Positions 2,029-27,614 of a stretch of DNA of 33,643 nt are shown in pieces. Source of the DNA: Chelativorans sp. (GTDB lineage: Bacteria > Pseudomonadota > Alphaproteobacteria > Rhizobiales > Rhizobiaceae); assembly GCF_031180965.1 (NCBI RefSeq), contig NZ_JAPSLH010000032.1, positions 1 to 33,643 of the forward strand, in the 5' to 3' direction. The position numbers and the translations under genes were made by a program. Within the stretch, counting starts at the first letter, position 1; every line of letters starts with the position of its first letter. Under the pieces are notes generated by a model. That model was not told where the DNA came from, ran no database searches, and saw only the letters and a list, made by a program, of their open reading frames with translations.

Positions 2029-2160
2029 ATGATTTTCGAGCAGTACAACTGCCTCTGTTGCCGCTACCGCTCGCGCCGCTCTCTCGGGAACCGTCCGTCG
2101 TCAGGCTTGGCGCCCACGCACCATCTGAATGGGAACGGAGGAATTCGATGGGATCGATGA
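2029..2160 (+). CDS. Possible cysteine-containing leader peptide (43 residues)
   Basis: An ATG with an excellent ribosome binding site (GGGAGG, 4-base spacer) opens a 43-codon frame that begins MIFEQYNCLCCRYRSRR. Three cysteines lie at residues 8, 10 and 11, followed by an arginine-rich stretch. Its TGA at 2158-2160 lies just inside the next gene, whose start at 2148 is in another frame, so the two could be translationally coupled. Short Cys-rich upstream ORFs are known to control sulfur genes by ribosome stalling. The operon here carries an importer of the sulfonate/taurine class, which makes that idea attractive. Real expression is unproven, and the frame could be fortuitous. Confidence 0.35.
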   Translation: MIFEQYNCLCCRYRSRRSLGNRPSSGLAPTHHLNGNGGIRWDR

Positions 2161-7570: not shown

Positions 7571-8320
7571 ATGAAGGTTGCATTGATCACGGGCGGCGCT
7601 GGCGCCGTCGGCGCGGCCACGGCGCGCATGCTTGCCAGTGATGGGTTTTCAGTGGTCCTTGCAGACAAGGCAGAGGAAGCCGCGCAGCTTGTTGCCGAGG
7701 AAATCCGCAGCAATCACCCCGTCGAAGCCGTTGCGGAGCCGGTCGATCTCTCGATACCTGGCGCCGTGGCGGCGCTGGTCGCGCGTGTAGGAGAACGCTT
7801 CGGCAGGCTCGATTGCCTCGTTAACAATGCCGGTCGAAGCGGGGCGCCGAAGATCGCCGAGGTCGACCTCGACGAATGGAACGCCGTTATGGCCGTCAAT
7901 CTCACGGCACCGATGCTCCTCGTCAAAGAGGCGCTGCCGCTGATGCGCCGGACAGGCGGGGGCAGCATCGTCAATGTCGCATCCCGGGTCTATCTGAGCG
8001 GCACCGGCCTCGGATATGCTTCCAGCAAGACGGGGCTTATCGGCCTCACAATGGCCCTGGCTGTTCAGCTCGGCAGGGACCGCATCCGCGTCAATGCGGT
8101 GGCGCCGAGCTTTCTCAACTCCCCCTTCAACAAGAAAGCCGTCGAGGCGAATAACGACCTCGTCGAATCCTTCATCAGGATCACACCCCTGGAGCGAGTC
8201 GGCACGCCGGAGGATGTAGCCGGGGCTATCGCCTTCCTTGCCTCCGACCGCGCATCCTTCATCACCGGCGATATCCTCCATGTTTGCGGAGGTGCGCAGC
8301 TCGCGCCGCAGCCCGGATAG
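7571..8320 (+). CDS. SDR-family oxidoreductase
   Basis: A classical 249-residue short-chain dehydrogenase. It has the TGGAGAVG cofactor motif (7-14), Asp32 at the end of strand two (ADK, favouring NAD(H)), NNAG at 85-88, Asn110 and the catalytic set Ser138, Tyr149 and Lys153 (YASSK). It ends with ASFITGDILHVCGG, the normal SDR tail. AGGAG overlaps the stop codon of the hydrolase gene, with the ATG about six bases on, so it is the last member of the operon. It likely oxidises an alcohol released or modified by the preceding enzymes. The substrate is unknown. Confidence 0.9.
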   Translation: MKVALITGGAGAVGAATARMLASDGFSVVLADKAEEAAQLVAEEIRSNHPVEAVAEPVDLSIPGAVAALVARVGERFGRLDCLVNNAGRSGAPKIAEVDLDEWNAVMAVNLTAPMLLVKEALPLMRRTGGGSIVNVASRVYLSGTGLGYASSKTGLIGLTMALAVQLGRDRIRVNAVAPSFLNSPFNKKAVEANNDLVESFIRITPLERVGTPEDVAGAIAFLASDRASFITGDILHVCGGAQLAPQPG

Positions 8321-8322
8321 GA

Positions 8323-8338
8323 CGGGCTGGTCAGCCCG
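8323..8338. other. Short hairpin in the convergent junction
   Basis: CGGGCT, a 4-base loop and AGCCCG lie between the SDR stop and the convergent tctA stop. It is a perfect 6-bp stem usable on both strands, but no T-run follows it. It may slow polymerase at the converging ends. Weak evidence for a terminator. Confidence 0.25.
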
Positions 8339-9845
8339 GTCCCGCCGTTGCTTTCCTGCGGTTGAAGATCCTGCCCCAGAGCGGCGTCTGGTTCAGGATA
8401 AGCAGCAGGAAGGCTATCGTAAGCACGAGCGAGATGGGATTCACGAAGAACGACGTGAAGAAGTCCATCAAGTCGCCTCGCGACGACAGGATGGCCCGCC
8501 TGAACGAAACATCCATGAGCGGACCCAGGATCACGCCCAGGATGACTGGACCCGGCTCGAAGCCATAAACCTTCATGAAGTAGCCGAGAACGCCGAAGGC
8601 CAGCATCCAGTAGACGTCGGTGAAGCTGTTCTGGATCGTATAGGTGCCGACCACCGACAAAAGGATCACCAGCGGGATCAGCAAGCCGCGCGGCATTGTC
8701 ATGATCCTGGTGAAGATGCGCACGCCCGTGAGGCCGATGATGAGCAACAGGCTGTTGGCGAGCACGAGAGCGCCCACGATGAACCAGAAGAGGTGCGGCG
8801 TGTCGACCATGAGCATCGGGCCGGGGCGCAGCCCATGAATGAACAGCGCGCCGATGAACAGCGCGGTGACGGCGTCCCCGGGAATACCGAGCGTAAGCAT
8901 CGGCACGAACGCCCCGCCGATCACGGCATTGTTGGCGGATTCGGGCGCGACGAGCCCTTCGTAAGCTCCCTTTCCAAAGGGGCGGCTTGGATTCTTCACG
9001 GTTCGCTTTGCCTGGTCGTAGGCGATCAGCGCCGCGATGTCGCCGCCGGCGCCGGGCAATGCGCCTATGATGACGCCGATGGCGGAGCTGCGAATCGAGA
9101 GAGGCAGATACTTCCGCACCTCCTTCCAGGCGGGAACGATCTTGGAGACCTGCTGCTTTATCGGATCGATGTGCAGATCGCGCAGCTGATAAAGAGCCTC
9201 GGCGACACCGAAGAAGCCGATCATCGCAGCGATATAGGATATGCCCCCGAGCATGCTGACGCTGCCGAAGGTCAGGCGCGGCTGGGCCGTCAGGTTGTCG
9301 AGGCCGACCAGGCCGATGAGCACGCCGAGCGCTGCCGCGAAAATACCCTTTGCCAGTGATCCTCCGGAAAGGCCTCCAACGAGCAGCAAGCCTATCATGG
9401 CCAGCAGCAGGAAATCCCGTGGAGCGAACTGCAAAGCAATTCCCGAGACCATGGGAGCGCCCACGGCGAGGATGGCGATGCCGATATAGCCGCCGATGAC
9501 CGAAACCACGGTGCTGATGCCGATCGCCTTTCCAGCTTCTCCCAATTTTGCCAGAGGGTAGCCGTCGAAGGCCGTTGCAACTGCGGCGGGCGTGCCCGGG
9601 ATGTTGAGCAGGATCGCCGTTCGACTGCCGCCATAGACGCCGCCGCAATAGACGCCCACCATCATCGCCAGAGCGGCATTGACGTCCCACGAGAAGGTGA
9701 AGGAGATCAGCACCGATACGGCCATCGTGACCGAAATGCCTGGAATTGCCCCGGCATAGACGCCAGCGAACGTGCCGACCGCGACGATGAGGAGCAGGCT
9801 GGGATCGAGCCAGCTCATGAGAAAGTAGCTGAGGGTCTCGGGCAT
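8331..9845 (-). CDS. tctA: Tripartite tricarboxylate transporter, large permease TctA
   Basis: A 504-residue polytopic membrane protein of the TctA family (about 12 hydrophobic segments). Family motifs are present: GVYAGAIPGISVTMAV near residue 30, GVYCGGVYGGSRTAILLNIPGTPAAVATAFDGYPLA, and the second-half repeat GALPGAGGDIAALIAYDQAKR with APESANNAV and LGIPGDAVTA. It forms the main translocation subunit with TctB and takes substrate from a periplasmic TctC, usually a carboxylate. The ATG has GGAG eight bases upstream, 15 bases after tctB. Its own tctC upstream is only a fragment, so it must depend on a TctC encoded elsewhere, such as the one further right. Confidence 0.95.
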   Translation of the reverse strand: MPETLSYFLMSWLDPSLLLIVAVGTFAGVYAGAIPGISVTMAVSVLISFTFSWDVNAALAMMVGVYCGGVYGGSRTAILLNIPGTPAAVATAFDGYPLAKLGEAGKAIGISTVVSVIGGYIGIAILAVGAPMVSGIALQFAPRDFLLLAMIGLLLVGGLSGGSLAKGIFAAALGVLIGLVGLDNLTAQPRLTFGSVSMLGGISYIAAMIGFFGVAEALYQLRDLHIDPIKQQVSKIVPAWKEVRKYLPLSIRSSAIGVIIGALPGAGGDIAALIAYDQAKRTVKNPSRPFGKGAYEGLVAPESANNAVIGGAFVPMLTLGIPGDAVTALFIGALFIHGLRPGPMLMVDTPHLFWFIVGALVLANSLLLIIGLTGVRIFTRIMTMPRGLLIPLVILLSVVGTYTIQNSFTDVYWMLAFGVLGYFMKVYGFEPGPVILGVILGPLMDVSFRRAILSSRGDLMDFFTSFFVNPISLVLTIAFLLLILNQTPLWGRIFNRRKATAGPG

Positions 9846-9860: not shown

Positions 9861-10325
9861 TCAGGGCAGGTAGATCTGGAAGATGAACCTGAAGACGATG
9901 TAGACGAATACCAGCGAAGCCGCCGTGGCAATCGCCGCCTTGAGCAGGCCCTTTTGGTGGAGCACGGCGAACGACACGCAGAGGAACACCGCTGATGCTA
10001 TCCAGAACCCGGCGATCTCGAGCGCCAGGACGTATGCAGCGCAAAGCAGGACGTATCCGATCATCGGCAAGGTGACGATCTTGGGGAATCGCTCAGTGAG
10101 CGGCGGCTTCTCCTCCGTTCCGCGCGGTCGCGCGAAAGCGCGCACCAGAAGCGAAAGGATGCAGAGGACCATCACCGCCGCCGCGATCATCGGAAATGTG
10201 CCGGGGCCGCTCAGGGCGCCAAAGCCCTCGATCCGCCACGCCTCCCAGAGGAGGACGCAGGATGACGCGAGCAGCACGACGTAGAACGGAATTGCGCCGG
10301 GGACGCGTGATTGAAACTCGTTCAT
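9861..10325 (-). CDS. tctB: Tripartite tricarboxylate transporter, small permease TctB
   Basis: A 154-residue protein with four hydrophobic segments. They include IPFYVVLLASSCVLLWEAW after a short polar start, then GTFPMIAAAVMVLCILSLLV, and a C-terminal pair from IVTLPMIGYVLLCAAYVLAL to LVFVYIVFRFIFQIYLP. The FP-I-A and closing VF-FIF--YLP features are normal for TctB. It partners TctA in the inner membrane. The start has GGAG seven bases upstream. The gene order (tctC remnant, tctB, tctA) is the canonical tctCBA order, which supports the reading that this operon lost its binding protein by decay. Confidence 0.92.
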   Translation of the reverse strand: MNEFQSRVPGAIPFYVVLLASSCVLLWEAWRIEGFGALSGPGTFPMIAAAVMVLCILSLLVRAFARPRGTEEKPPLTERFPKIVTLPMIGYVLLCAAYVLALEIAGFWIASAVFLCVSFAVLHQKGLLKAAIATAASLVFVYIVFRFIFQIYLP

Positions 10326-10787: not shown

Positions 10788-11747
10788 ATGCTCATGGATC
10801 TAAGCATTGCACGCCGAATCGCCCTTCCGGCGGTGGGCGTAGGCTGTGGCAGTCTCGCCAACGCCGCGGGCGCGGCGTCATTTGGTGAGATGATCGACTT
10901 GGCTGTCAGCGAAGGCATCCGCTATTTCGATACAGCCGCGCTCTATCTGGGCGGCGAAAGCGAGCGGCGGCTGGGCGCTGCGCTTGCGGCTCATACTGAC
11001 GAGAGCTTCACCGTCTCCACCAAGGTTGGGCGAACACAGAACCATACCGGATCGAGCATTGATCCCAGCGGCAAGAATTCCACGTGCGACTACACGGCCG
11101 CCGCGACATGTCGTTTGGTGGAAACAAGTCTGCGGAACCTGCAGCGTGACCGGCTCGACCTTGTCATGATCCACGATCTGACGAGGGAATTGCATGATGA
11201 TCGCTACGAACAGCGCTTCGAAGAAGCGATGATCGGTGCCTACGAAGCGCTGAAGGACCTGCGCGAGGCCGGCACGATCGGTGCCATCGGCGTCGCCACC
11301 ATGGAGTGGAGGAGTTGCCTTGATTTCGCACGCGCGGGTAATTTCGATGCATTCATGCCGGCCGGGCAGTACACGCTGCTCCACCGCGAATGCACGCCGC
11401 TCCTGGATCACTGCTTCCAAACGGGAGCTGCCGTGATTGCAGCTTCGCCGTTCAATTCAGGCATCCTGGCGACAGGGGCAGTGCCCGGCGCATTCCACAA
11501 CATGCGCGAGGCCACGCCTGACGTGCTCGCCAGAGTCGCAGCAATCGAGGCGATCTGCAGCCGCCACCGCGTTCCCCTTCCGGCGGCTGCTTTGCAGTTT
11601 CCCACGCGGCACCCGCCGGTATCGACCGTGGTTTTCGGAAGCCGTTCGGCAGACGAATTGCAGCGGAATCTCGACCTCCTCGCTATGCCCATCCCGGAAG
11701 GGCTGTGGGAGGAACTCGAACAGGACGCGGCGTCACGCCCAGGTTGA
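10788..11747 (+). CDS. Aldo/keto reductase
   Basis: A 319-residue NAD(P)-dependent TIM-barrel oxidoreductase. The AKR tetrad is complete: Asp48 and Tyr53 (YFDTAALYLGG), Lys79 (VSTKVG) and His129 (MIHD). GESERRLGAAL is the helix after the active Tyr, and ASPFNSGIL plus VVFGSRSADELQRNL provide cofactor contacts. It resembles the L-fucose/D-threo-aldose dehydrogenase-like branch, which oxidises sugars or cyclic polyols. The ATG has GGAGG four bases upstream. It is transcribed alone on the plus strand and ends by overlapping the convergent isomerase gene by 15 bases. It is a candidate for a ring-hydroxyl dehydrogenase in the proposed cyclitol route. Confidence 0.92.
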   Translation: MLMDLSIARRIALPAVGVGCGSLANAAGAASFGEMIDLAVSEGIRYFDTAALYLGGESERRLGAALAAHTDESFTVSTKVGRTQNHTGSSIDPSGKNSTCDYTAAATCRLVETSLRNLQRDRLDLVMIHDLTRELHDDRYEQRFEEAMIGAYEALKDLREAGTIGAIGVATMEWRSCLDFARAGNFDAFMPAGQYTLLHRECTPLLDHCFQTGAAVIAASPFNSGILATGAVPGAFHNMREATPDVLARVAAIEAICSRHRVPLPAAALQFPTRHPPVSTVVFGSRSADELQRNLDLLAMPIPEGLWEELEQDAASRPG

Positions 11748-12572
11748 TCGGGAAGCGGTTCCGGCGCGATGCGTGGATTGGATCAGATCGATCCCCCGCT
11801 GCATGTCGGCAATGGGATCGCTGGAGATGATCTCCAGGATCGCCGCGCCGTCGAAAGGCTGCTCGGCGATGGCTTCTACTATGGCGGCGAAATCCACCGA
11901 GCCTTTGCCCAGGGGATCATGGCGCCAGGCTGTGCGGGTGGCGTCCGACAGGTGATACTGTCCGATGAGCGGACCCCATCGCCGAATTGCCGCGGACTGA
12001 TCTTCGCCGATGAATTCCGCATTGGCCACGTCATAAGCTATCAGCGCGAAAGGTGAGTGGAGGCTGCTGACCCACTCGCCCAGCGCATCTGCGGTCGGGA
12101 CGGGAGTCTGCGGGTGCGACTCGAAAAACAGCCGGCAATTGGACTCGCCTGCAGCCTCGAGCAGCGCAATCGACGTTTCGGTGAGATAAGCGAGGCTGTC
12201 GGCGCGATCGGGCGCCATAAGGCCTGAGACACGGCCGGGAACGACCACGACGCCGCGCGCCCCGAGATCCGCCGCAAGAGCGATCGTCTTCTTGTAGGCG
12301 AAAACCGTGAGCGCGCGGACTTCCGGTACGACGCTTGCAAGATTGAAGTCCAGTGCCGGCAGGTTGAGTGACTCGATCCGCAGGCCCTCTCCCTCCAGCA
12401 TCCGGCGCAGCTCTCGCCGCGCGGGGGCGCCGAAATCGTCGAACCACAGGTGGCCCGCGGCGAGGAGGACGTCGAAATCGTTGAGGGGAATGCTTGAAAG
12501 CCGCTTCATCGATGCAAGGGCGGGTTCGCGCCAAAGAAACGAGAAGGTGCTGCCTCCCAGTTTGAGCTTCAT
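11733..12572 (-). CDS. Sugar phosphate isomerase/epimerase-family TIM-barrel protein
   Basis: A 279-residue AP-endonuclease-2-like (PF01261) barrel. Candidate divalent-metal ligands sit in the standard order: Glu151 (FFESHPQ), Asp181 (IAYDVAN), His207 (YHLSD) and Glu247 (AILEI). This fold covers isomerases, epimerases and dehydratases such as inosose dehydratase IolE. The start MKLKLGGSTFSFLW is chosen because longer in-frame readings add a low-complexity tail unlike the family. The ribosome binding site is weak, suggesting coupling to iclR, which ends 23 bases upstream. A role as dehydratase or isomerase of a cyclic polyketo intermediate is inferred from context only. Confidence 0.85.
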   Translation of the reverse strand: MKLKLGGSTFSFLWREPALASMKRLSSIPLNDFDVLLAAGHLWFDDFGAPARRELRRMLEGEGLRIESLNLPALDFNLASVVPEVRALTVFAYKKTIALAADLGARGVVVVPGRVSGLMAPDRADSLAYLTETSIALLEAAGESNCRLFFESHPQTPVPTADALGEWVSSLHSPFALIAYDVANAEFIGEDQSAAIRRWGPLIGQYHLSDATRTAWRHDPLGKGSVDFAAIVEAIAEQPFDGAAILEIISSDPIADMQRGIDLIQSTHRAGTASRSTWA

Positions 12573-12595
12573 TCTGCGGCCCCTATGTGAAAATT

Positions 12596-13417
12596 CTAAC
12601 GGGTCGTGCCCGCGCGATGCAGGCGCTGATGAATGCTGTCGACCGCCTTGCGAAGGGTGACGATGCACAGATCCCGCGTAGCGGCGTCGAACCGCGCCAC
12701 CGGCACCGCAACGTTGATCGACGCCATCGGATAACCGGATTTGCTAAGGATCGGGCGTGCTACGCCGGCAATGCCCGGTGTGAACTCCTCGACGACAAAA
12801 GCGACGCCTTGGCTGCGCACCTGCTCGAGATCCCGCCTCAGATCGTCAGCGTTGGTGATTGTGTTCGGCGTTACCTGCTCGAAAGTCACCCGGGCTAGAT
12901 ATTCCTCCAGCATCTCGTTCGGCAGGAACGCCAGGAGAGCCTTTCCGCCGGAGGTAGCGTAGAGCGGCGCCGTATCCCCCTGGCGCATGTGGTAGAGGAG
13001 GCGGTGAGGGCTCATGACGCAGGCGACCACTTCCGACTTGTCGCCTTTGATATAATTCAGAGCACAGGATTCCTGTGTCTCGGATGTGACCCAGGCGAGC
13101 GTTCCCTGTGCGATCGACACCAGGTCGTTGCCCTCGTTGATCCGTGTCGCCAGTTGCACGATGGCGGGGCCGAGGGCGTATCCCTTAGTGGCCGGCACGT
13201 AGGTCAGGTAATCGCGGCTCACCAGCGTCTTCAGAAGCTGGGTGAGGCTGCTCTTGGGGATTCCAAGTTCCTCGGCAATGGCGGTATGTGTCTTCTCGGC
13301 GTCCCAGCGTCCGAGGAACTCGAAGAGATCCAATACCCTGGTCGCGGATTTGACCGCACCGTCCTCGGTTGCCGGTGGTCGCGCGCGCGTAGGCAGTTCC
13401 TGCTGGTCCATTCTCAT
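12596..13417 (-). CDS. IclR-family transcriptional regulator
   Basis: A 273-residue regulator. The winged helix-turn-helix occupies about residues 22-82: SATRVLDLFEFLGR, then HTAIAEELGIPKSSLTQLLKTLVSRDYL and a wing ending KGYALG. The IclR effector domain (about 100-265) has the usual MRQGDTAPLYATSGGKALLAFLP and GVAFVVEEFTPGIAGVARPI strings. IclR proteins commonly govern aromatic and sugar-acid catabolism. It diverges from the shikimate-dehydrogenase-like gene and precedes an isomerase gene on its own strand. Its promoter carries GAAC repeats also seen before the aldo/keto reductase and tctC genes, so autoregulation and control of a small regulon are likely. Confidence 0.94.
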   Translation of the reverse strand: MRMDQQELPTRARPPATEDGAVKSATRVLDLFEFLGRWDAEKTHTAIAEELGIPKSSLTQLLKTLVSRDYLTYVPATKGYALGPAIVQLATRINEGNDLVSIAQGTLAWVTSETQESCALNYIKGDKSEVVACVMSPHRLLYHMRQGDTAPLYATSGGKALLAFLPNEMLEEYLARVTFEQVTPNTITNADDLRRDLEQVRSQGVAFVVEEFTPGIAGVARPILSKSGYPMASINVAVPVARFDAATRDLCIVTLRKAVDSIHQRLHRAGTTR

Positions 13418-13482
13418 CTTCCGCTTTGCCGGCCGAGAGACCCCCGCCGAAGTCTCTACTCTTTTGCCGGGTGCTTTACATA

Positions 13483-13508
13483 TCGAACTTGTTCACATAA
13501 TCGAACAA
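13483..13508. promoter_or_regulatory. Candidate IclR operator in the iclR / aroE-like divergent region
   Basis: TCGAAC at 13483-13488 begins GAACTTGTTC, a 10-base dyad (GAAC, TT, GTTC) at 13485-13494 that continues as GTTCACA. A third element, TCGAACAA, lies at 13501-13508, 18 bases from the first GAAC. A palindrome plus a direct repeat is the layout reported for PcaU/PobR-type IclR operators. The site lies about 70 bases before iclR and about 85 before the divergent gene. Confidence 0.5.
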
Positions 13509-13590
13509 TATCGCAAGAGGAAATGCAGGTCCATTCTGAGAGTCATCGGGGCGGTTTCAAGCCACGCCGCCCGCCGGAGCGGAGAACGCA

Positions 13591-14388
13591 ATGCTTGAAC
13601 GCTACAGCGGCGCAACGCGCGTTTATTTCATTCTCGGCCACCCCATCGCCCAGGTGAAGGCCCCGGCAGGAATGACGCGCTTTTTCGAGGAGCATGGCCG
13701 CGACGCGATTTGCGTTCCAATTGATGTCCCGCCTGCCGATTTCGAGGCGTTCGTCGCGGCCGCTGCCGCGCTGCTCAATGTCGATGGCTTCGCAATCACC
13801 ATTCCGCACAAATTCGCCGCCGCGCGCGTGTGCGCCACCATGTCTGAGCGCACGCGCCTACTCACCTCATGCAACATCATGCGCCGCAATCGCGATGGCA
13901 CATGGCACGGCGATATGTTGGACGGCGTCGGCAGCGTCGGGGCCATGCGGGCGAATGGCTGCACCATCGAGGGCAAACGTGCGCTGCTGGTCGGCGCCGG
14001 CGGCGCCGGCAGCGCGATCGGCCTTGCCCTTCTCGACGCAGGCGCCTCCGAACTCGCGGTGCACGATGCCGATCCGGCCAGGCGCGATGCACTGATTGCG
14101 CGGCTGCGGGAGCGGCATGGTGAAAAGGTGGTCACCGGCTCTGCCGACCCGAAAGGCTTCGCTGTCGTTGCCAACGCCACCCCCGCAGGGATGGCTTCGA
14201 GCGATTCCCTTCCGCTCGACGTGGAACGGCTGGACGCCGGCGCCTTCGTCAGCGACGTGATCACCGTGCCGGAGGTGACACCGCTGCTGCAGGCGGCACG
14301 GGAGCGCGGTTGCGGCACCTCGACCGGTGTCGAGATGTTCCTGGCCGCGCGCCGCTCCATGTATGATTTCTGGTTTGAGGGAGCCTGA
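13591..14388 (+). CDS. Shikimate dehydrogenase-fold protein with altered substrate pocket
   Basis: A 265-residue protein with both AroE domains. The N-terminal region, YFILGHPIAQVKAP, aligns with the AroE GNPIAHSKSP loop. The two serines that bind the substrate carboxylate are Val22 and Ala24 here. Catalytic Lys74 (ITIPHK) and Asp111 (GDMLDGVG) and Asn95 are retained, and the Rossmann motif GAGGAG is at 135-140. The C-terminal Gln of the family (ML-AQ) is Ala. So dehydrogenase chemistry looks intact, but the substrate probably lacks the shikimate carboxylate. GGAGA lies six bases before the ATG. It is the only plus-strand gene of its flank and diverges from iclR. A cyclitol-type substrate is inferred. 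Confidence 0.85.
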   Translation: MLERYSGATRVYFILGHPIAQVKAPAGMTRFFEEHGRDAICVPIDVPPADFEAFVAAAAALLNVDGFAITIPHKFAAARVCATMSERTRLLTSCNIMRRNRDGTWHGDMLDGVGSVGAMRANGCTIEGKRALLVGAGGAGSAIGLALLDAGASELAVHDADPARRDALIARLRERHGEKVVTGSADPKGFAVVANATPAGMASSDSLPLDVERLDAGAFVSDVITVPEVTPLLQAARERGCGTSTGVEMFLAARRSMYDFWFEGA

Positions 14389-14403
14389 CTGCAGGCAGCC
14401 GCC

Positions 14404-15120
14404 TCAGCGCCTTCCTAGCCTGCCGTTCGCGGAACAGAGATGCTGTTTTGCGAGCGACTCGCGATCCAGTGCAGAAGCGAGCTGGTAAACGGTCAGCGTT
14501 GTCGCCGCTTCGGAGAGCCTCATCCCATTCAGCCGGTCGACAAGGCCGGGTAGGCCCGCCTTGAACGCCTCCGCGTCGAAGCTCTCGAACAGAATTGCTC
14601 CAGCCTCCGGAAGGGCGGGTGTCTCCCCGCCGACGGTAAAGGGCACCGGCGGCACGGAAGGGTCCCGCTCAAGCAGGTGGACCGCTATGACAGACGGTTC
14701 CTCGAGGAACCCGCGCAGCCCTGTCTGCAGGTCCGGGGTTGTGGGGTTGACATCCTCGCCAAACACCATCGCCGCAAGAATGCTGCCCAGTCCCCCTCCG
14801 TATGATGCCTCCCGCGTGCAGCAAAGGCGAAAGAACCCGCGAAAGGATGGCCGCATGGACCGGGACCATTCCGTGGGATTTTCAAGAAGATGCCGGTAGG
14901 CCTCGCTCGCCAGAACGCCGGTGTCTTCCAGATCGTAAAGGGTAAAGTATTCGTGGAGCGGACCTTGCAGCCGGCGGTAGCGTCGGGCGCTGCACATGCC
15001 GGGCACCGAAAGCCTTTCCGGCACGTGCTCGCGTGTGTGCCAAATGTTGTATTCGGCGGCGCGCTCAGGATCCACACCGTTCCACAGTGCAATGAACGCC
15101 GTGCCTCGAAAACCCATCAT
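14404..15120 (-). CDS. Protein with two EthD/Dabb-like halves, function unknown
   Basis: A 238-residue protein. The first half contains ALWNGVDPERAAEYNIWHT and REHVPERLSVPGMCSARRYR, ending FTLYDLED. This is the pattern of small ferredoxin-like (dimeric alpha/beta barrel) domains of the EthD/DUF4286 kind. The second half repeats the theme more weakly, with an AVHLLERD strand and a TVYQLAS strand. Such proteins often sit beside aromatic or lactone pathway genes as isomerases or accessory factors, but no catalytic role can be claimed. It is the last gene of the run NTF2-fold protein, maleylacetate reductase, dioxygenase, and lies 92 bases after the latter. The start has two adjacent ATGs. Confidence 0.7.
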   Translation of the reverse strand: MMGFRGTAFIALWNGVDPERAAEYNIWHTREHVPERLSVPGMCSARRYRRLQGPLHEYFTLYDLEDTGVLASEAYRHLLENPTEWSRSMRPSFRGFFRLCCTREASYGGGLGSILAAMVFGEDVNPTTPDLQTGLRGFLEEPSVIAVHLLERDPSVPPVPFTVGGETPALPEAGAILFESFDAEAFKAGLPGLVDRLNGMRLSEAATTLTVYQLASALDRESLAKQHLCSANGRLGRR

Positions 15121-15212
15121 CTTCAGCGTTACCTCTTTGCCTCGACCTGCACCTGATGAGCTGGCATTTCACCCACCCGCGTCCGCGGGTATCGCAGCCA
15201 GTTTCATGCCGC

Positions 15213-16079
15213 TCAGGTCTTCGCAGGCGCCAGGACGAAATCATAGTTGAGATGCCGGCAGGGGCGCTCCTGCACGGTTCCGTCCGGAGCCGGTCCCGCG
15301 GGCAGGTGCTCGAAGCGGCTGATGAGAGAGTCCTTCACCCCGAACACCACGTCCGAATCCAGATACGGGTCTCCTTCCACGAAGACATGGGTGACGAGTG
15401 TCTCGAAGCCGCCATGGCCGATCATGAAGTGCACGTGGCCCGGACGGTAGGGATGACGCCCTTGGAGCTCGAGCATCTTGCCGACCGGCCCGTCATGCGG
15501 AATAGGGTAGGCGGCCGGCATGGTGGTCCAGAAAGAGAATGAACCGTCATCGCGTGCGCGCAGGCGGGCGCGCATGTTGGGCCCCTCCGCCTCGGTGTGC
15601 TGGACATCGTAATATCCATCCTCATCCGAGTGCCATACGTCGATCACGGCGCCTGCCAGCCCGTTTCCATGGGTGTCCCGCACGGAACCGGTTACCAGGA
15701 GAGGCTCACCGTCCGTGCCGGCGGAGATATTCGCCCCGTTTGGAAATTCGGGCGGGTTCTGCACGTAGAACGGACCGAGCACCGTCGTCTCGGTCGCCCC
15801 GTCGGGCAGGCGATGGTTTATGGCATCGACGAGCATGGAAACGCCGAGCGTATCCGACAGCAGGATGAACTCCTGGCGCTTGTGGTCCGTGATGTGTCCC
15901 GCGGCTGTGAGGAATTCGATCGCCTGCGCCCACTCCGCCTGAGTCGGCTCGATCTCGCGTACAAAATCGTGCAGGTGCCGTACCAACGATTCGCTTATTT
16001 GCCGGATACGCGGATTGGTCGTGGCCGAAAGGCTGGCAATGACCGCCTGTGTGATGGTGTGTTCGTCGAAATTCCGCAT
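15213..16079 (-). CDS. Intradiol ring-cleavage dioxygenase, hydroxyquinol 1,2-dioxygenase-like
   Basis: A 288-residue non-haem Fe(III) dioxygenase. The N-terminal dimerisation helix region (RHLHDFVREIEPTQAEW, then RQEFILLSDTLGVSMLVDAI) and LGPFYVQNPPE are typical of the hydroxyquinol/catechol branch. The iron ligands are Tyr157 (GYYDVQH), Tyr191 (PAAYPIP), His215 and His217 (PGHVHF). The DVWHSDEDG-YDVQ and PIPHDGPVG wording is closest to hydroxyquinol 1,2-dioxygenases, which convert benzene-1,2,4-triol to maleylacetate. The adjacent maleylacetate reductase gene supports this. The start at MRNFDE matches family N-termini; the GGAGG upstream is unusually close, so coupling to the preceding gene (19 bases away) is likely. 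Confidence 0.93.
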   Translation of the reverse strand: MRNFDEHTITQAVIASLSATTNPRIRQISESLVRHLHDFVREIEPTQAEWAQAIEFLTAAGHITDHKRQEFILLSDTLGVSMLVDAINHRLPDGATETTVLGPFYVQNPPEFPNGANISAGTDGEPLLVTGSVRDTHGNGLAGAVIDVWHSDEDGYYDVQHTEAEGPNMRARLRARDDGSFSFWTTMPAAYPIPHDGPVGKMLELQGRHPYRPGHVHFMIGHGGFETLVTHVFVEGDPYLDSDVVFGVKDSLISRFEHLPAGPAPDGTVQERPCRHLNYDFVLAPAKT

Positions 16080-16098
16080 CCATTCCTCCCAGTCAGGT

Positions 16099-17172
16099 TC
16101 AGCCTGCCGTGGCCGGTGGTTGACCCGACCATGCTCGAATGAGGAGATCCCGGATGCGGTCGCGTTCGATAGGGGCGGGGTTCCAATAGGGGTCGGAACC
16201 TGCTGCCTGGTCAACCGCCGCCTCGATGCCGCTTTCCGGCATGCCGATTTCCGCCAGGCTCGTGGGCGCTTCGAGCCTGACGTTCAGCTCGTAGAGGCCG
16301 CTGGCGGCGTGCTCGACACCGAGCGCCGCGGCAATGCGCGCCATGGCCTCGGGTGCGGCCTGGCTGTTGTAAGCCACCGCATGCGGCAGGATCACCGAAT
16401 GCGTATCGGAATGGGGAAGGTCGAACAAGCCGCCGAGCACGTGGCACAGCTTGTGATGGAGCGCCATGCCGACCGAACCAAGGCACGCACCGCACAGCCA
16501 CGCCCCATAAAGCGCATCGCTCCGGCTTTCGCGATCGTGCGGCCGTTCATGGATGACCGGCAGGCTGCGTGCCAAGGCGCGGACGCCTTCTTCCGCCATA
16601 AGCGAGATGACCGGGTTTCTGTCCTTGGCATAAAGCGCTTCGACGGCATGGGCGATCGCATTGATGCCGGAGGTGATCGATATTCCAACCGGCAGCCCGA
16701 CCGTCAGTTCGACGTCATAGATGACGCTTTCGGGAAGGACTGCCGGGGACCGCAAGGTGGTCTTCACCCCGTTTTCCGTCTGGCCCAGGATCGGCGTCAC
16801 TTCGGAGCCGGCGTAGGTCGTGGGGATGGCGATCTGCGGCAAATCCGTTCGCAGGGCCAGCGCCTTGGCAAGGCCGATGGTCGAGCCGCCGCCGATGGCC
16901 ACTATGCCGTTGCACCCTGCCGCCCGCAGCCGCTCCAGTGCCGTTTGCGTGACGTCCGTCGGCGTATGCATGCGCGCGCCGCTGAAAAACCCGCCGCAGC
17001 GCTCTCCCAGCAGCTCGCACGCCCGACGCGCCATGTCCTCCTGCTGCGGTGTGGAAAGCACCAGAGCATTGTCGATGCCAAGGTGTTGCGTCTCGTTGGG
17101 CAGCAGGCCGAGCGTTCCCGACCCGTAGGCCACCCTCATAGGCAGGGCCTCATAGAAGAAGGGCTGCATCAC
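16099..17172 (-). CDS. Maleylacetate reductase
   Basis: A 357-residue member of the iron-alcohol-dehydrogenase superfamily. The NAD(P) motif is AIGGGSTIGLAKALAL (GGGS at 94-97), followed by IPTTYAGSEVTPI. The SGINAIAHAVEALYA segment has Asn171 where metal-dependent relatives have Asp, as is usual in maleylacetate reductases. MALHHKLCHVLGG and LPHSDTHSVILPHAVAYN complete the family signature. It reduces maleylacetate to 3-oxoadipate, the step after hydroxyquinol ring cleavage, which fits the dioxygenase gene directly downstream. The gene follows the NTF2-fold gene by 26 bases in the same transcription unit. Confidence 0.95.
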   Translation of the reverse strand: MMQPFFYEALPMRVAYGSGTLGLLPNETQHLGIDNALVLSTPQQEDMARRACELLGERCGGFFSGARMHTPTDVTQTALERLRAAGCNGIVAIGGGSTIGLAKALALRTDLPQIAIPTTYAGSEVTPILGQTENGVKTTLRSPAVLPESVIYDVELTVGLPVGISITSGINAIAHAVEALYAKDRNPVISLMAEEGVRALARSLPVIHERPHDRESRSDALYGAWLCGACLGSVGMALHHKLCHVLGGLFDLPHSDTHSVILPHAVAYNSQAAPEAMARIAAALGVEHAASGLYELNVRLEAPTSLAEIGMPESGIEAAVDQAAGSDPYWNPAPIERDRIRDLLIRAWSGQPPATAG

Positions 17173-17198
17173 CGGCTCCTCGCGATCAGGGCAACTTC

Positions 17199-17816
17199 CT
17201 ACTCATCCCATCTGAGCGCTTTACCGCTCAGCCAGCGCGCCCCCTCGGCATAGAGCGCCTCGACCTTCGGGCCAGTCAGCCCCGGCATGTCCATCTTGAT
17301 CTTATAGCCGATCTCCGACTGGATGTAGGCGAGGTGCCGATAGCCTTCGGGGAAGGAGGCGAGGCGGTCGGCATCGAACTTCAGCGATGCGGCGGCGGTA
17401 TCGACAGGGTCGATCCTGTCCTTTTCATAGATTGGCTGTCTTAGCACCAGGCCCCACCGGCCGTCGCGCTTTTCGAGAAAATCATAGAAGCGGCCGGTGC
17501 ACACCACATCGCAGGTGACACCCTGAACCTCCGCCCGCTGCGAGATCGTCATCTTCGTCTGCGAGATGGCCCGGGTTCCGCTCAGCTCGATGGACATGCC
17601 GCCCAGGAAATGCAGGATTCTGACGCCCTTTTCGAACCCCTCACGGCTCACGCGGATGAAGTCGTCGGCGGAGCCTTGAAACCAGGTGGCCATCATCCGC
17701 CCGTCATCGTGCCACACGCTGCGAAACTTTTCCCAAAGACCTGCGTCACGCCACACGACCCAGTTCTCAACCAGCTCCCTGATCGCTTCGCGATCCCACC
17801 GAGCAACATCGTTCAT
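17199..17816 (-). CDS. NTF2-fold (SnoaL-like) protein
   Basis: A 205-residue protein. The first 135 residues fit a SnoaL_4 cone fold: IRELVENWVVWRDAGLW, FRSVWHDDGRMMATWFQG, a core strand with His69 (ILHFLGG), then DVVCTGRFYDFLEKRDGRWG and LRQPIYEKDRI. About 70 further residues are an extension. The fold includes scytalone dehydratase, which dehydrates and aromatises a cyclic ketone, and polyketide cyclases, but the full scytalone set of residues is not visible. GGAGG five bases before the ATG fixes the start. It is the first gene of the unit with maleylacetate reductase and the dioxygenase, so a role in forming the ring-cleavage substrate is plausible. Confidence 0.85.
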   Translation of the reverse strand: MNDVARWDREAIRELVENWVVWRDAGLWEKFRSVWHDDGRMMATWFQGSADDFIRVSREGFEKGVRILHFLGGMSIELSGTRAISQTKMTISQRAEVQGVTCDVVCTGRFYDFLEKRDGRWGLVLRQPIYEKDRIDPVDTAAASLKFDADRLASFPEGYRHLAYIQSEIGYKIKMDMPGLTGPKVEALYAEGARWLSGKALRWDE

Positions 17817-17890
17817 GCAAACCTCCACCATCCTCAGTGCACATAAGAGAACATCTTCGCCATGTAAACCGAATTGTTCTTATATGCGGC

Positions 17891-17912
17891 CTAATTCGTA
17901 ACTGTGAATTAG
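17891..17912. promoter_or_regulatory. Perfect inverted repeat between divergent operons
   Basis: CTAATTC (17891-17897), an 8-base spacer and GAATTAG (17906-17912) form a perfect 7-base dyad. It is in the AT-rich gap between the NTF2-fold/maleylacetate reductase/dioxygenase operon (minus) and the isomerase gene (plus). Near it, GAATTGTTC at 17871-17879 weakly resembles the GAAC repeats of the IclR region. It is a good operator candidate for coordinated divergent control. Confidence 0.5.
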
Positions 17913-18016
17913 AGCTGGCTGCGGGCTAATGGATGGGCTAAGAGGTGGAAGCCGCTTGCTCACGGCCCAAAGGCTGCCGAGTGGGCGTCCCAGAACTCCC
18001 CAGAAGAAGGTGTAAA

Positions 18017-18832
18017 TTGTCTGTACTTTCGCTGCACCACCTGACGATGATCGATGCCCACCCTCTGGACCTCATCGACGCGGCGGCTGCCGGCGGATTC
18101 AGCCATTGCGGCATCCGTCTCATCCCCCCTCGGAAGGGAGACCCCTTCATTGACGTCCTCAGCGACCCAACCGAAATCCCTGCCATCGGGCGGCGCCTTC
18201 GCGAAACTGGCATAAGGCTCTTGGACATCGAGGCGGTCTGGATAGCCTCCACCACCGACCTTGAGACGCTTCGCGCCCCCTTCGAGGTCGGCGCACGGCT
18301 CGGGGCAGAATATGTCCTTGTGGTCGGCTATGACGACAACAGAGCGCGGCTTCTGGAAAGCTTCGGCCATGTATGTGAGTTGGCCCGTTCGTTGGGCCTG
18401 AAGGTGGCGCTGGAGTTCATCACCTACACGAGCCTGAAGACGCTTGATGAGGTAGCTTCCTTCATCAAGGAGGCTGCGCAGCCCGATGCAGGCATGTTGA
18501 TCGATGTTCTTCAGTTCTTCCGCGCTGGTTGCAAGCCTGAGGAGATCGCGCAATACGATCCCAAGCTCTTCTCCTACCTTCAGATCTGCGACGGGCTCGC
18601 GCAAGCGCCTGTCACAATCGAAGACCGCCGCTTTGAGGCGCGCAGCAATCGGCGCCTGCCGGGCCGCGGCGAGTTGCCTGTCTCTGCGCTGATGCACGCC
18701 CTGCCGCGCGGACTGCCGATAAGCCTTGAGGCGCCGACGCCCGAACTGAACGGCTTCGAGTTCCGGGAGCAGGGCCGGATCGCGGGGGAGGCGACCCGGA
18801 CGTTTCTTTCCGAATGCGGCGTCAAGAGCTGA
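18017..18832 (+). CDS. Sugar phosphate isomerase/epimerase-family TIM-barrel protein
   Basis: A PF01261-type barrel, about 271 residues. It starts with LHHLTMIDAHPLDLIDAAAA and has GFSHCGIRL near the first strands. Metal-site strands carry Glu in VALEFITYT, Asp in MLIDVLQFFRAG, LQICDG, and Glu in ISLEAPTPE. Relatives have His in D-LHF at the second strand; here it is Gln, so metal coordination may be altered. The TTG start (AAGG six bases upstream) matches family N-termini; a GTG 72 bases earlier would add an unlikely basic tail. It is transcribed divergently from the NTF2-fold/dioxygenase operon and converges with the FAD dehydrogenase gene. Dehydratase or isomerase role inferred. Confidence 0.82.
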   Translation: MSVLSLHHLTMIDAHPLDLIDAAAAGGFSHCGIRLIPPRKGDPFIDVLSDPTEIPAIGRRLRETGIRLLDIEAVWIASTTDLETLRAPFEVGARLGAEYVLVVGYDDNRARLLESFGHVCELARSLGLKVALEFITYTSLKTLDEVASFIKEAAQPDAGMLIDVLQFFRAGCKPEEIAQYDPKLFSYLQICDGLAQAPVTIEDRRFEARSNRRLPGRGELPVSALMHALPRGLPISLEAPTPELNGFEFREQGRIAGEATRTFLSECGVKS

Positions 18833-18857
18833 TCTGGCCGCGGGCGCTGCCGCTTGG

Positions 18858-20588
18858 TCACCAAGCTGCCGTTCGATCCTCTCTCCCGGCAGCGTGCGAC
18901 GCCGCGATATAGCCGAACACGATGCCCGGACCGAGCGTGATCCCCGGCCCCGGATATACGCCCCCCATCACCGACTGCATATCGTTGCCGATGGCGTAGA
19001 GATTTTCGATCGCCGAGCCATCCGCGCGCAAGATGCGCGCGTTCTCGTCCGTGACAAAACCCTCTGCGCTGCCGATAGGGCAGGGGAAGAGCTTCACGGC
19101 ATAATAAGGCGGGGTCGCAATCTTTCCGAGCGTTGGGTTGGGACCATGCGAGGCATCGCCATTGGCGCGCTGGTACACGGTCGAGCCCCGGTCGAATTCG
19201 GGGTCCATGCCGCTTTCCGCGTATTCGTTCATCCGTGCGATGGTTTGCTCGACATTTGCGGCGTCTAGGCCGAGCCTGTCGGCCAGTTCGCGAGGAGTAG
19301 TGCCCATCGTGACGTAACCTGAGGCGAGATATTCCTTCAGGCCGCGCGCCCCTGGCCTCACCATGCCGAGGCCGTATTTCTGGACCGCAACCGAGTCCGC
19401 GATGATATAGGCAGGGATCGTCGCACCGTTCTTGTTGTGCTCGATCATAGCCGCGCCGAAGAGATGATAGGAGATACTCTCGTTGACGAAGCGCCGTCCG
19501 TTGCGGCCGACGCACACGGTGCCCGGCTTGCTGCGGTCGAAGACGAAATGCGGAAACACCGCCAGCGACCCGTCGGGCCGCCGGTTGATCGAGCACGGCG
19601 CCCAGAAGCAGGGCTGCCACGCCTCGGTGCCGTAATGGCCGCCTAGCTTCATCGCCATCTCATGCAACTCGCCCTTCGGCCCGGGAGCGCCGGGCCCAAA
19701 TTCAGGCAGCCCGGCAGGCAGTTTTTGCTTCCGCATCTCCGTGTTGCCGGCAAAACCGCCGGTGGCGAGCACCACGCCGCGCGATAGAAGAATCCTGCGC
19801 GTTGCGCCACCTTGCTCGACCACGATCCCGTCGACACGTCCATTCATCTCGATCAGCTGATCGACCCGGGCATCGACCATTATGTCCACGCCCGCATTTT
19901 TCGCAGCCAGGAGCAAATGGCCGACGAGAGCGTTCCCCATCACCAGCCGGGTACCCCGCCGATAGCGCATCCGGTCGGCAGCATAGCGCCCGACCAGCCT
20001 CAGCGACCGCAGGAATGATTTGGCCGAGCGCGTCATCGTCAGCAGGCTGGCGATGTCGTCCTTGTCCACCATCAAGCCGCCGAAAATTGTGAATTCAGGG
20101 ATCGGCGGTCGTACAAGATCGAGATCCTTGCCGAGCAGGCGTCCGTCGAACGGCGTCGGTTCCAGCGCCCGTCCGCCGGTCGTCGCCCCTTCGATCTCGG
20201 AAAGATAGTCCGGGTGGAAAGGGCGCGGCCGCAACCTTATGCCGGCACGATCTTCGAGAAAGGCGATCGCCTCCGGTCCGGCGCTAAGAAACCTGTCCCG
20301 CATGGCCTTCGGCGAATGATTGCCGACAGCGCGGTCGAGATAGCCGGATGCCTTCTGAAAATCGTCTTCCGCACCCAATGCCTGCGAATGCCGTGTGTTC
20401 GGCACCCACAGTGTTCCCGCCGAATAGGCGGAGGTGCCGCCGACATGCGACGTTCGCTCGACCAGAAGAACCCGACATCCTAAAAGGGCAGCGGTCGTGG
20501 CGCAGGCGAGCCCCGGTGCGCCTGCGCCGAGCACCGCGAGATCGTAACGGGCTTCACTTGGGAGGGTAGAAAGAGAGATGGTGGGCAC
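18858..20588 (-). CDS. FAD-dependent dehydrogenase, KstD/fumarate reductase-flavoprotein family
   Basis: A 576-residue flavoprotein. The N-terminal FAD motif is DLAVLGAGAPGLACA (GAGAPG at 21-26), with LLVERTSHVGGTSAYSAG next. The middle has RGVVLATGGFAGN, and the C-terminus has LYAIGNDMQSVMGGVYPGPG and LGPGIVFGYIAA. This ending is typical of the 3-ketosteroid delta1-dehydrogenase-like branch, which introduces a double bond next to a ring ketone. Such chemistry can turn a cyclohexenone into a phenol. The GTG start has GGAG about seven bases upstream. It lies beside the isomerase and dioxygenase genes and is the best candidate for the aromatising step, though its substrate is not shown by the sequence. 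Confidence 0.88.
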   Translation of the reverse strand: MPTISLSTLPSEARYDLAVLGAGAPGLACATTAALLGCRVLLVERTSHVGGTSAYSAGTLWVPNTRHSQALGAEDDFQKASGYLDRAVGNHSPKAMRDRFLSAGPEAIAFLEDRAGIRLRPRPFHPDYLSEIEGATTGGRALEPTPFDGRLLGKDLDLVRPPIPEFTIFGGLMVDKDDIASLLTMTRSAKSFLRSLRLVGRYAADRMRYRRGTRLVMGNALVGHLLLAAKNAGVDIMVDARVDQLIEMNGRVDGIVVEQGGATRRILLSRGVVLATGGFAGNTEMRKQKLPAGLPEFGPGAPGPKGELHEMAMKLGGHYGTEAWQPCFWAPCSINRRPDGSLAVFPHFVFDRSKPGTVCVGRNGRRFVNESISYHLFGAAMIEHNKNGATIPAYIIADSVAVQKYGLGMVRPGARGLKEYLASGYVTMGTTPRELADRLGLDAANVEQTIARMNEYAESGMDPEFDRGSTVYQRANGDASHGPNPTLGKIATPPYYAVKLFPCPIGSAEGFVTDENARILRADGSAIENLYAIGNDMQSVMGGVYPGPGITLGPGIVFGYIAASHAAGREDRTAAW

Positions 20589-20947: not shown

Positions 20948-21940
20948 TTACGGCCTGGGAATGCCGACTTCTTCCGGAGAGACTTTCGCATCCCCCGTGT
21001 CCTGCAGGATCCAGCTCGTCACGGATTGCCACCGCTTCATGAACTCGTCGGCTTCCGCGCCGCTGATCCCCATCTTCACCATGCCCGACTTCTGAATAAA
21101 ATCGTCCACCCTTTCGACCTCGACCGCTTTTGCGAACGCCTCGGTGAGGGTCTTCTTTACCTCATCCGGCGCATCACGCTTGACGAATACGCCCTGGAAC
21201 GAACCCCACGGGAGGTACTGTCCCAGTTCAGGATACTCGTTGGTGATGGGCGGAATGTCGGGGAACTGCGCGAGCGACTCCTTGTCCAGGACGACAAGGC
21301 CGCGGACGCGCCCGGCGCGCAGCAGCTCGGCCGCCGCCGGAAGGCTTACCGGCATAAAGTCGACATGGCCGCCTTGCAACGCGGTGAGGCCAGGACCTTC
21401 ACCGTCGAACGGAACTTGCGTGACCTCACCCTCCACCACCGAATTGAGCATGCCCATCGACACCGCCGGCGAACCGCCAGGACCGGTTGCGCCCATCCGG
21501 ATCTGGCCCGGGTTGGCCTTGATGTCATTGACGAGTTCGGTCAGCGTCTTCCACTTGGCATCGGGATTCACGACGAACACCTGAATGTTGCGGCCGACGA
21601 TGATGACCGGGTAGAATTCGTTGTAATCGAGATTGGAAAGGCCCAGCACCTTGTGCAATTGGGGGTTCTCGGCGCCGAAGAGGATATTGTATCCGTCCGA
21701 CGGCCTGGAATGCACGTATTGCATCGCGATGGCGCCGACACCGCCGGGTCTGTTCACTAGGACGATTTTTGCGCCGAGAATCTCCTCGGCGGCCGGTGAC
21801 ATCACACGTGCGAGGTTATCCGTGGCACCGCCCGCGCCCCACATGATCGTGCCCTGGATGTCGCGACTGGGATAATCCTGCGCAAGGGCAGGGCCCCCGA
21901 TCAGCAAGGCAGCGACGGCCGTCATTATTGTTCTCAACAT
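20948..21940 (-). CDS. tctC: Tripartite tricarboxylate transporter substrate-binding protein TctC
   Basis: A 330-residue periplasmic protein (Bug/TctC family). The signal peptide MLRTIMTAVAALLIGGPALA is cleaved before QDYPSR. Family strings follow: GGATDNLARVMSPAAEEILG, VNRPGGVGAIAMQYV, SRPSDGYNILFG, and AALQGG-type LTALQGGHVDFMPVSLP. Such proteins bind carboxylates and feed TctA/TctB. AGGAGG five bases before the ATG is a very good ribosome binding site. No tctA or tctB lies beside it, so it is an orphan. It shares its 3' end with the decayed tctC copy beside tctBA, and may therefore have replaced it functionally. Its promoter holds a perfect TGTGAAC dyad. Confidence 0.94.
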   Translation of the reverse strand: MLRTIMTAVAALLIGGPALAQDYPSRDIQGTIMWGAGGATDNLARVMSPAAEEILGAKIVLVNRPGGVGAIAMQYVHSRPSDGYNILFGAENPQLHKVLGLSNLDYNEFYPVIIVGRNIQVFVVNPDAKWKTLTELVNDIKANPGQIRMGATGPGGSPAVSMGMLNSVVEGEVTQVPFDGEGPGLTALQGGHVDFMPVSLPAAAELLRAGRVRGLVVLDKESLAQFPDIPPITNEYPELGQYLPWGSFQGVFVKRDAPDEVKKTLTEAFAKAVEVERVDDFIQKSGMVKMGISGAEADEFMKRWQSVTSWILQDTGDAKVSPEEVGIPRP

Positions 21941-24412: not shown

Positions 24413-24433
24413 AGTCACCTACCTTTCCGGCGG

Positions 24434-26256: not shown

Positions 26257-26317
26257 CCCATCCTGCTAAAGAGATGAAGCAGCCCACCGCGGATCATGCC
26301 CGCGGCGGGCTGGGCAC

Positions 26318-27304: not shown

Positions 27305-27465
27305 GATTTCCTCCCTTTTACGATGGTTGGTCCTAGAGCCTTCACGGGCCTGCTTGCGGTTGAGTAGGCCGCACCACTGTGATGTTGCGGGTTGGAGCTG
27401 CTCGGTGAAGAAGACGAAGGTTGGGCCCATCGCCTCCATGGCGGAACCTGATCACGGCCCTGACG

Positions 27466-27552
27466 TCATTGATTCCCGCGGGAATGGGTGCTTCTCCACT
27501 GAGGCGCGCGGCTGCAACAGCCCCCCAGGGCTGCGATATGAAGCGCTTTCAT
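27466..27552 (-). CDS. Small ORF with strong ribosome binding site (28 residues), in the gap before dctP
   Basis: GAGGAGGA lies eight bases before an ATG that opens MKALHIAALGGCCSRAPQWR, ending NQ and a TGA. It is in the 310-base gap between the quinate/shikimate dehydrogenase stop and dctP, on the same strand. The ribosome binding site is much better than expected by chance. It could be a leader or regulatory peptide (it has a Cys-Cys pair like the other small ORF here), or the start of a deleted gene. I do not recognise a family. The rest of the gap has no other feature I can support. Confidence 0.35.
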   Translation of the reverse strand: MKALHIAALGGCCSRAPQWRSTHSRGNQ

Positions 27553-27614
27553 GAAATTTCCTCCTCCTCAGCTCCAGCGGCTTCCAACTACGCTCGTCCT
27601 CCCGAGCGGGCGGC

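Follow-up and report, generated by a model that had tools for sequence, protein, structure and literature searches.

Which enzyme supplies hydroxyquinol (benzene-1,2,4-triol) to a bacterial ring-cleavage gene cluster that carries no flavin monooxygenase? The question is raised by a stretch of 33,643 nucleotides (the window) comprising positions 1 to 33,643 of contig NZ_JAPSLH010000032.1 (C54) of Chelativorans sp. (assembly GCF_031180965.1; 4.37 Mb, 64 contigs, 95% complete). An initial annotation of positions 10788–20588, made from the sequence alone, proposed that a non-carboxylated cyclitol is converted there to hydroxyquinol and 3-oxoadipate, with neither a flavin monooxygenase nor a decarboxylase encoded. 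The families that it named are all present: an aldo/keto reductase, two TIM barrels (TIM1 and TIM2), an AroE-fold protein, a hydroxyquinol dioxygenase, a maleylacetate reductase (MacA), an NTF2-fold protein and a KstD-like flavin adenine dinucleotide (FAD) dehydrogenase. None of the ten proteins of the interval matched PF01494, the flavin monooxygenase family, in agreement with it. Its list of features was incomplete, omitting an IclR-type regulator (12596–13417), a 238-amino-acid protein (14404–15120) and the flanking Tct genes. It was thus largely right on families and wrong on the decarboxylase, as described below. Coordinates of all features are given in Table 1; L, G and C numbers denote loci, genomes and contigs.

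A predicted cofactor-free decarboxylase

Comparison with solved structures strongly suggested that the NTF2-fold protein (17199–17831) is a cofactor-free hydroxybenzoate decarboxylase of the AGDC1/PPP2 type. Its fold matched these decarboxylases well above other NTF2-like proteins, and by structural alignment it was 31–37% identical to AGDC1 of Blastobotrys (Arxula) adeninivorans and PPP2 of Madurella mycetomatis (6w54, 7kd9, 7jmr and 7jmv). All eight active-site residues given for AGDC1 in PMC7862292 (W35, R39, D40, T60, W61, H86, Y150 and Q192) were kept and were invariant across 38 homologues, and the carboxylate-binding Arg and the Trp clamp were retained. Unlike AGDC1 and PPP2, the window protein is bacterial, has a hydroxyquinol dioxygenase and a maleylacetate reductase as operon partners, and carries at the position of AGDC1 Y146 an Arg (R131) that is invariant among its homologues. 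According to PMC7862292, Y146 contacts the third hydroxyl of gallate in AGDC1 and is V165 in PPP2; it is therefore non-essential to the family, PPP2 being likewise without it. According to PMC5605622, AGDC1 accepts, of seven acids tested, only gallate and protocatechuate, so a catechol-type acid is expected for the window protein.

Scytalone dehydratase, whose chemistry had been assigned to this protein, is probably not its nearest relation, judging by sequence and structure comparison. With the eight decarboxylase residues in place and the gene in one operon with the dioxygenase, that assignment was not supported; nor were the absence of a decarboxylase and a non-carboxylated substrate.

Dioxygenase, maleylacetate reductase and the core operon

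The dioxygenase (15213–16073) matched the hydroxyquinol enzyme 1tmx with an E value of 4.5e-90 and 50% identity. Its best five PDB chains were all hydroxyquinol-type (1tmx, PnpC (3n9t), a 6-chlorohydroxyquinol enzyme, 8r2w and the unnamed 8r2v) at 224–306 bits, whereas catechol and chlorocatechol enzymes reached at most 128, a grouping that rests on bit scores and not on a tree. It kept 4/4 of what we take to be the iron ligands and 10/11 of the presumed specificity residues of 1tmx. Compared with the hydroxyquinol 1,2-dioxygenases 1tmx, PnpC and 8r2x, it has Leu in place of F108 of 1tmx. MacA (16099–17172) matched 3hl0 (E 1.8e-129) and 3w5s (E 4.1e-127) over nearly its full length and differed from these maleylacetate reductases in neighbourhood only. 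A family scan of 10788–20588 gave no match to cycloisomerases or dienelactone hydrolases, from which we infer that hydroxyquinol is the natural substrate of the dioxygenase–MacA pair.

The genes for decarboxylase, MacA and dioxygenase follow one another on the minus strand, separated by 26 and 25 bp. The decarboxylase would act on an aromatic acid of the catechol type, in the simplest case 2,4,5-trihydroxybenzoate, and release its carboxyl group as CO2; the dioxygenase would open the resulting hydroxyquinol to 3-hydroxymuconate/maleylacetate; and MacA would reduce maleylacetate to 3-oxoadipate. Homology, active-site residues and the recurrence of the operon strongly suggest these three steps, the last two of which had already been proposed in the initial annotation. 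The hydroxyquinol branch itself is known. What would be new is its feeding by a cofactor-free decarboxylase, in place of the hydroxylase that is the operon partner of known hydroxyquinol 1,2-dioxygenases. We found no description of a decarboxylase-fed hydroxyquinol operon or route in the openly licensed literature, which is weak evidence of absence. Catechin breakdown in Bradyrhizobium reportedly runs via phloroglucinol carboxylate and hydroxyquinol.

The predicted operon links a recently described decarboxylase family, characterised in fungi, to hydroxyquinol cleavage in several bacterial families and points to a function open to testing for many genes annotated only as 'SnoaL-like' or 'NTF2-like'. 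Decarboxylases that dispense with the prenylated-flavin cofactor are wanted for catechol-type chemicals, as noted in the abstract of PMC7862292.

Recurrence of the operon and extent of the cluster

One genome per species was scanned with four decarboxylase sequences, which gave 291 relatives, and the best 80 loci were kept. Among the 79 with a called decarboxylase gene (L084 has none), the direct same-strand order decarboxylase–MacA–dioxygenase occurred in 7 and decarboxylase–dioxygenase in 6, and the TIM2 gene adjoined the decarboxylase gene in 8. A dioxygenase gene of any identity was present at 16/80 loci. At 14/80 it had at least 45% identity, with gene midpoints no more than 2.2 kb apart in 13 and 3.6 kb apart in one; these 14 loci include Bradyrhizobium, Bosea, Plastoroseomonas, Ferrovibrio, Shinella, Sinorhizobium and Pseudomonas oryzagri.

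Co-occurrence was counted at the 48 loci of at least 20 kb, with identity thresholds of 27–60% that we set per gene; these loci are mutually related, and the Fisher values overstate the case. MacA was found at 9/12 loci with the dioxygenase vs 1/36 without (Fisher 1.2e-6), IclR at 11/12 vs 7/36 (1.4e-5), TIM2 at 10/12 vs 6/36 (5.9e-5) and AroE at 6/12 vs 3/36 (4.2e-3). Enrichment of the alpha/beta hydrolase (6762–7562) was weaker (4/12 vs 2/36, 0.028), and the KstD, FAD_oxidored, short-chain dehydrogenase and LysR genes showed no significant link to the dioxygenase.

A close counterpart was found in G376, a genome of another genus of the same family, where a single segment of about 20 kb (L139, L039; identities in Table 1) holds orthologues of 16 of the 17 window proteins tested from 1010–21940, more than chance would give; the unit therefore begins near 1010 and not at 10788. 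Only the KstD-like gene is missing from that stretch, its best relative lying about 280 kb away. Much of the extended cluster is repeated at the Bosea loci L075 and L096, while four Bradyrhizobium loci (L082, L094, L104 and L116) carry TIM2, hydrolase, TIM1, AroE, IclR, decarboxylase, MacA and dioxygenase genes. In relatives the AroE-like and TIM-barrel genes tend to accompany the ring-cleavage unit, in support of the initial annotation. The KstD-like gene, central to the aromatisation proposed there, was present with at least 45% identity in 1/14 loci with decarboxylase and dioxygenase, and none of the 80 decarboxylase loci matched the aldo/keto reductase at E 1e-10. Both were rejected as parts of the core, and the KstD-like gene looks accessory.

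Seen from the dioxygenase side, 120/394 sampled genomes of the family matched at E 1e-70, and in six of these the identity was at least 59%. In 4/6 of these closest genomes a decarboxylase of at least 68% identity lay, by its coordinates, no more than about 18 kb from the dioxygenase; it was found in neither G047 nor G007. Among four plasmid dioxygenase loci that were fetched (L032–L035), only L035 of Sinorhizobium meliloti has it. The decarboxylase is thus a frequent, but not the sole, partner of the dioxygenase.

Other neighbours of the decarboxylase gene were also recorded. In G376 it directly adjoins a gene for a CHMI-type tautomerase (L139:11567-11956), and in G030 a gene for a DesA/LigM-type O-demethylase (L141:6638-8053; below family cut-offs), which hints at methoxylated aromatic acids. 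A solitary decarboxylase gene occupies one conserved chromosomal place, with the same neighbour families, at 14 Bradyrhizobium loci (L088, L095, L098, L106–L109, L119, L120, L122, L123, L126, L130 and L131).

AroE-like, TIM-barrel and KstD-like proteins

The AroE-like protein (13591–14388) scored 130.8 bits against a curated aroE cut-off of 200.2. It has Val and Ala at the two Ser positions of 2egg, which we take to bind the carboxylate, and keeps the Lys and Asp presumed to be functional in AroE enzymes; the initial annotation had correctly read the serines as lacking. With 4k28, presumably RifI2 of P. putida, it shares a QVK stretch and the Lys/Asp pair (E 4.5e-46), but 4k28 has Ser after QVK where the window protein has Ala. 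Ala at this second position was found in 8/8 readable decarboxylase-linked homologues besides the window's own, and Ser in 14 unlinked homologues and the second copy in L075. The substitution was dropped as a marker of hydroxyquinol clusters, Ala being present also in 15/40 AroE loci without a decarboxylase.

Both barrels have the AP_endonuc_2 fold; the IolE-like character assigned to them was not borne out by the family model. TIM1 scored 23.1 bits against the NCBIfam IolE (myo-inosose-2 dehydratase) model, whose cut-off is 290, and TIM2 was not among the matches to that model up to E 0.01. By model comparison TIM2 (18035–18832) resembles IolI, and it is 13–18% identical to IolI and the QuiC/AsbF 3-dehydroshikimate dehydratases; the TIM2 model favoured neither a cyclitol nor a shikimate-type substrate. 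At the position of His160 the window's TIM2 has Gln, and the 12 others in an alignment of 13 TIM2 proteins have His. The KstD-like protein (18858–20588) matched NF009477, 'FAD-dependent oxidoreductase', with 807 bits (cut-off 758) and stayed below the cut-offs of 3-ketosteroid models.

Origin of the ring acid

Upstream of the core operon, the carboxylate-type importers may take up a hydroaromatic acid, whose ring the AroE-like protein and the TIM barrels, joined in some species by a KstD-like desaturase, would oxidise, dehydrate and desaturate, so that the acid for the decarboxylase would form without a monooxygenase. A hydroaromatic origin is favoured because the core loci are enriched in AroE-like and TIM-barrel genes, which also lie interspersed among the core genes. 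QuiC-like and AroQ-type genes in sister clusters suggest acids resembling shikimate or quinate. For the whole course, from aromatisation of a hydroaromatic acid through decarboxylation to hydroxyquinol, cleavage and reduction to 3-oxoadipate, we regard the chances as evenly balanced. The new aromatisation claimed in the initial annotation would thus survive in part and in changed form, as a route to an acid that feeds a cofactor-free decarboxylase, with the KstD step accessory.

More tentatively, and with doubts outweighing support, the starting compound may be a plant hydroaromatic acid that reaches hydroxyquinol through the AroE-like, TIM-barrel and sometimes KstD-like enzymes and the decarboxylase. 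In one concrete form, quinate would keep its tertiary C1 hydroxyl while oxidation, loss of one water and desaturation yield a 1-carboxy-quinol, from which loss of CO2 would give benzene-1,2,4-triol directly. If so, quinate-like acids would have a second aerobic exit beside protocatechuate, and bacteria would turn plant ring acids into hydroxyquinol monooxygenase-free.

Several observations weigh against a hydroaromatic acid feeding this operon. By ordinary routes the ring oxygens of quinate and shikimate would lead to gallate or protocatechuate, not to 2,4,5-trihydroxybenzoate. The characterised relatives of the decarboxylase give pyrogallol or catechol rather than hydroxyquinol, AGDC1 refuses 2,4- and 2,5-dihydroxybenzoate (PMC5605622), and we found in the literature no assay of this enzyme family on a trihydroxy acid with an ortho hydroxyl. 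Both carboxylate-binding serines are gone from the AroE-like protein. The link between decarboxylase and dioxygenase is partial from either side, 64/80 decarboxylase loci (some on short contigs) and 36/48 of those of at least 20 kb having no dioxygenase. Enrichment of TIM1 was weaker and not clear (4/12 vs 3/36, Fisher 0.055), and the 238-amino-acid protein showed no significant link to the dioxygenase loci (3/12 vs 3/36). Flavin-hydroxylase-like genes were seen by eye about 3–4 kb from the decarboxylase–MacA–dioxygenase operon in L090 and L117, and the Chelativorans genome has seven PF01494 matches above 60 bits elsewhere.

The hydroxylase-like genes fit an alternative that we consider unlikely, though the likeliest of the rivals: a flavin hydroxylase, encoded elsewhere or, in relatives, nearby, would make from an aromatic acid the trihydroxybenzoate that the decarboxylase turns into hydroxyquinol, and the AroE, TIM and KstD genes would belong to a neighbouring shikimate/quinate-type pathway feeding protocatechuate. 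Consistent with it are a hydroxylase-like gene beside the decarboxylase gene in L134 (by eye; no dioxygenase match there), the O-demethylase gene in L141, the minimal decarboxylase–dioxygenase pairs of L083 and L087 without AroE and TIM genes, the QuiC and second AroE genes of the window, and two adjacent protocatechuate 3,4-dioxygenase-like PF00775 genes on contig C26. It does not account for the enrichment of TIM2, IclR and AroE where decarboxylase and dioxygenase occur together, nor for the way in which these genes alternate with those of the core in both the window and G376, and no hydroxylase is encoded in the interval. The missing AroE serines, their Ser/Ala distribution between unlinked and decarboxylase-linked homologues, the likeness of TIM2 to IolI and the sugar-type importers of two sister dioxygenase clusters would instead suit the initial annotation, in which oxidation, dehydration and desaturation would turn a non-carboxylated cyclitol or deoxy-inositol into hydroxyquinol, the NTF2 protein serving as dehydratase. 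We regard this as improbable and as the least economical of these three main readings: the NTF2 protein reads as an AGDC1-type decarboxylase with its carboxylate-binding Arg and Trp clamp, Ala occurs in AroE loci without a decarboxylase, a KstD-like gene is present at only 1/14 core loci, and the window's importers are of types that mostly take up carboxylates.

There is a slim chance that two feeders share one drain, the decarboxylase acting on a ring acid and AroE, TIM1 and the aldo/keto reductase on an uncharged ring, both giving hydroxyquinol. Decarboxylase and dioxygenase do occur without AroE at 8/14 loci (L069, L083, L087, L090, L117, L133, L136 and L138), and AroE relatives occur without a decarboxylase within the fetched stretch at 40/40 loci of an order-wide search, but no fetched locus combines an AroE relative and a dioxygenase of at least 45% identity without a decarboxylase in the same cluster. 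It is very improbable that gallate is decarboxylated to pyrogallol and that the dioxygenase then opens this ring to 2-hydroxymuconate, a route put forward for the yeast Arxula (PMC10512348). Such a route would use AGDC1's own reaction (PMC5605622) and could accommodate the tautomerase of G376 and the DesA/LigM-type gene of L141; against it, the dioxygenase keeps nearly all presumed hydroxyquinol-specificity residues, MacA, a frequent partner at full-length loci, needs maleylacetate, and an invariant Arg stands in place of the AGDC1 tyrosine that touches the third hydroxyl of gallate.

Gene content of the window

Table 1 Features of the window. G376 denotes percent identity of the orthologue in that genome; the names LysR, TctA, TctB and TctC are those we take to apply from the sequence.
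Feature	Coordinates	Strand	G376	Remarks
LysR regulator	1010..1906	-	71	left end of extended cluster
FAD_oxidored (PF12831) protein	2148..3596	+	81	extended cluster; 79-80% in Bosea
alpha/beta hydrolase, epoxide hydrolase / fluoroacetate dehalogenase group	6762..7562	+	62	true start upstream; 4b9a E 8.5e-71, 3r3u E 1.3e-66
short-chain dehydrogenase (SDR)	7571..8320	+	74	extended cluster
TctA transporter subunit	8331..9845	-	89
TctB transporter subunit	9861..10325	-	52
aldo/keto reductase	10788..11747	+	71	Pfam/NCBIfam family match
TIM barrel 1 (AP_endonuc_2)	11733..12668 (open reading frame)	-	67	start probably 12572; adjoins AroE in some relatives
IclR-type regulator	12596..13417	-	76	PcaR/PcaU-like score below family cut-off
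AroE-fold dehydrogenase	13591..14388	+	67	nearest solved relative 4k28; QVKAP replaces SxS motif
unannotated 238-amino-acid protein	14404..15120	-	53
hydroxyquinol 1,2-dioxygenase	15213..16073	-	62	reading frame open to 16214; homologues begin at 16073
maleylacetate reductase (MacA)	16099..17172	-	58	3hl0, 3w5s matches
SnoaL_4/NTF2-fold protein, AGDC1/PPP2-type decarboxylase (predicted)	17199..17831	-	76	first gene of core operon
TIM barrel 2 (AP_endonuc_2), IolI/QuiC-like	17945..18832 (open reading frame)	+	42	start probably 18035
KstD-like FAD dehydrogenase	18858..20588	-		NF009477 above cut-off; accessory
TctC-type solute-binding protein	20948..21940	-	82

The protein at 14404–15120 had no Pfam, NCBIfam or PDB match of note; we labelled it 'EthD' from its WHTREHVPER stretch, which we take to be typical of that family. 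In G119 a copy of 52% identity and the decarboxylase gene are about 0.1 kb apart. The FAD_oxidored protein gave a weak PF01494 match of 24.5 bits (cut-off 22) over the first 35 positions only.

Sister clusters and neighbouring genes

Another hydroxyquinol cluster, apart from the decarboxylase-fed one, is found at L040 and L041 (G047 and G007), L032 (a Bosea vaviloviae plasmid) and L034 (a Skermanella plasmid). It combines the same dioxygenase clade (61–69% identity) and MacA with an amidohydrolase, an NAD(P)-dependent oxidoreductase and ATP-binding cassette importers, which are sugar-type in L032 and L034. The amidohydrolase is PRK08204-type by model in L040, by annotation in L032 and L034 and by eye in L041.

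Thirteen further loci (L036, L038, L045–L054 and L057) carry a recurrent module in which an AroE-like protein and a TIM2-like barrel accompany at least two KstD-like FAD enzymes; neither a hydroxyquinol dioxygenase nor an AGDC1-type decarboxylase occurs in the sequence fetched around them. This module probably aromatises some hydroaromatic acid.

Beside the hydroxyquinol cluster, positions 22068–28520 of the window hold an ordinary shikimate/quinate module, with a QuiC-type 3-dehydroshikimate dehydratase (674 bits, below the cut-off of 1200), a second AroE above a shikimate-dehydrogenase subfamily cut-off and, by eye, TRAP-type transporter genes. An open reading frame of 761 amino acids at 31188–33473 has repeated glycine-rich units and appears autotransporter-like by eye.

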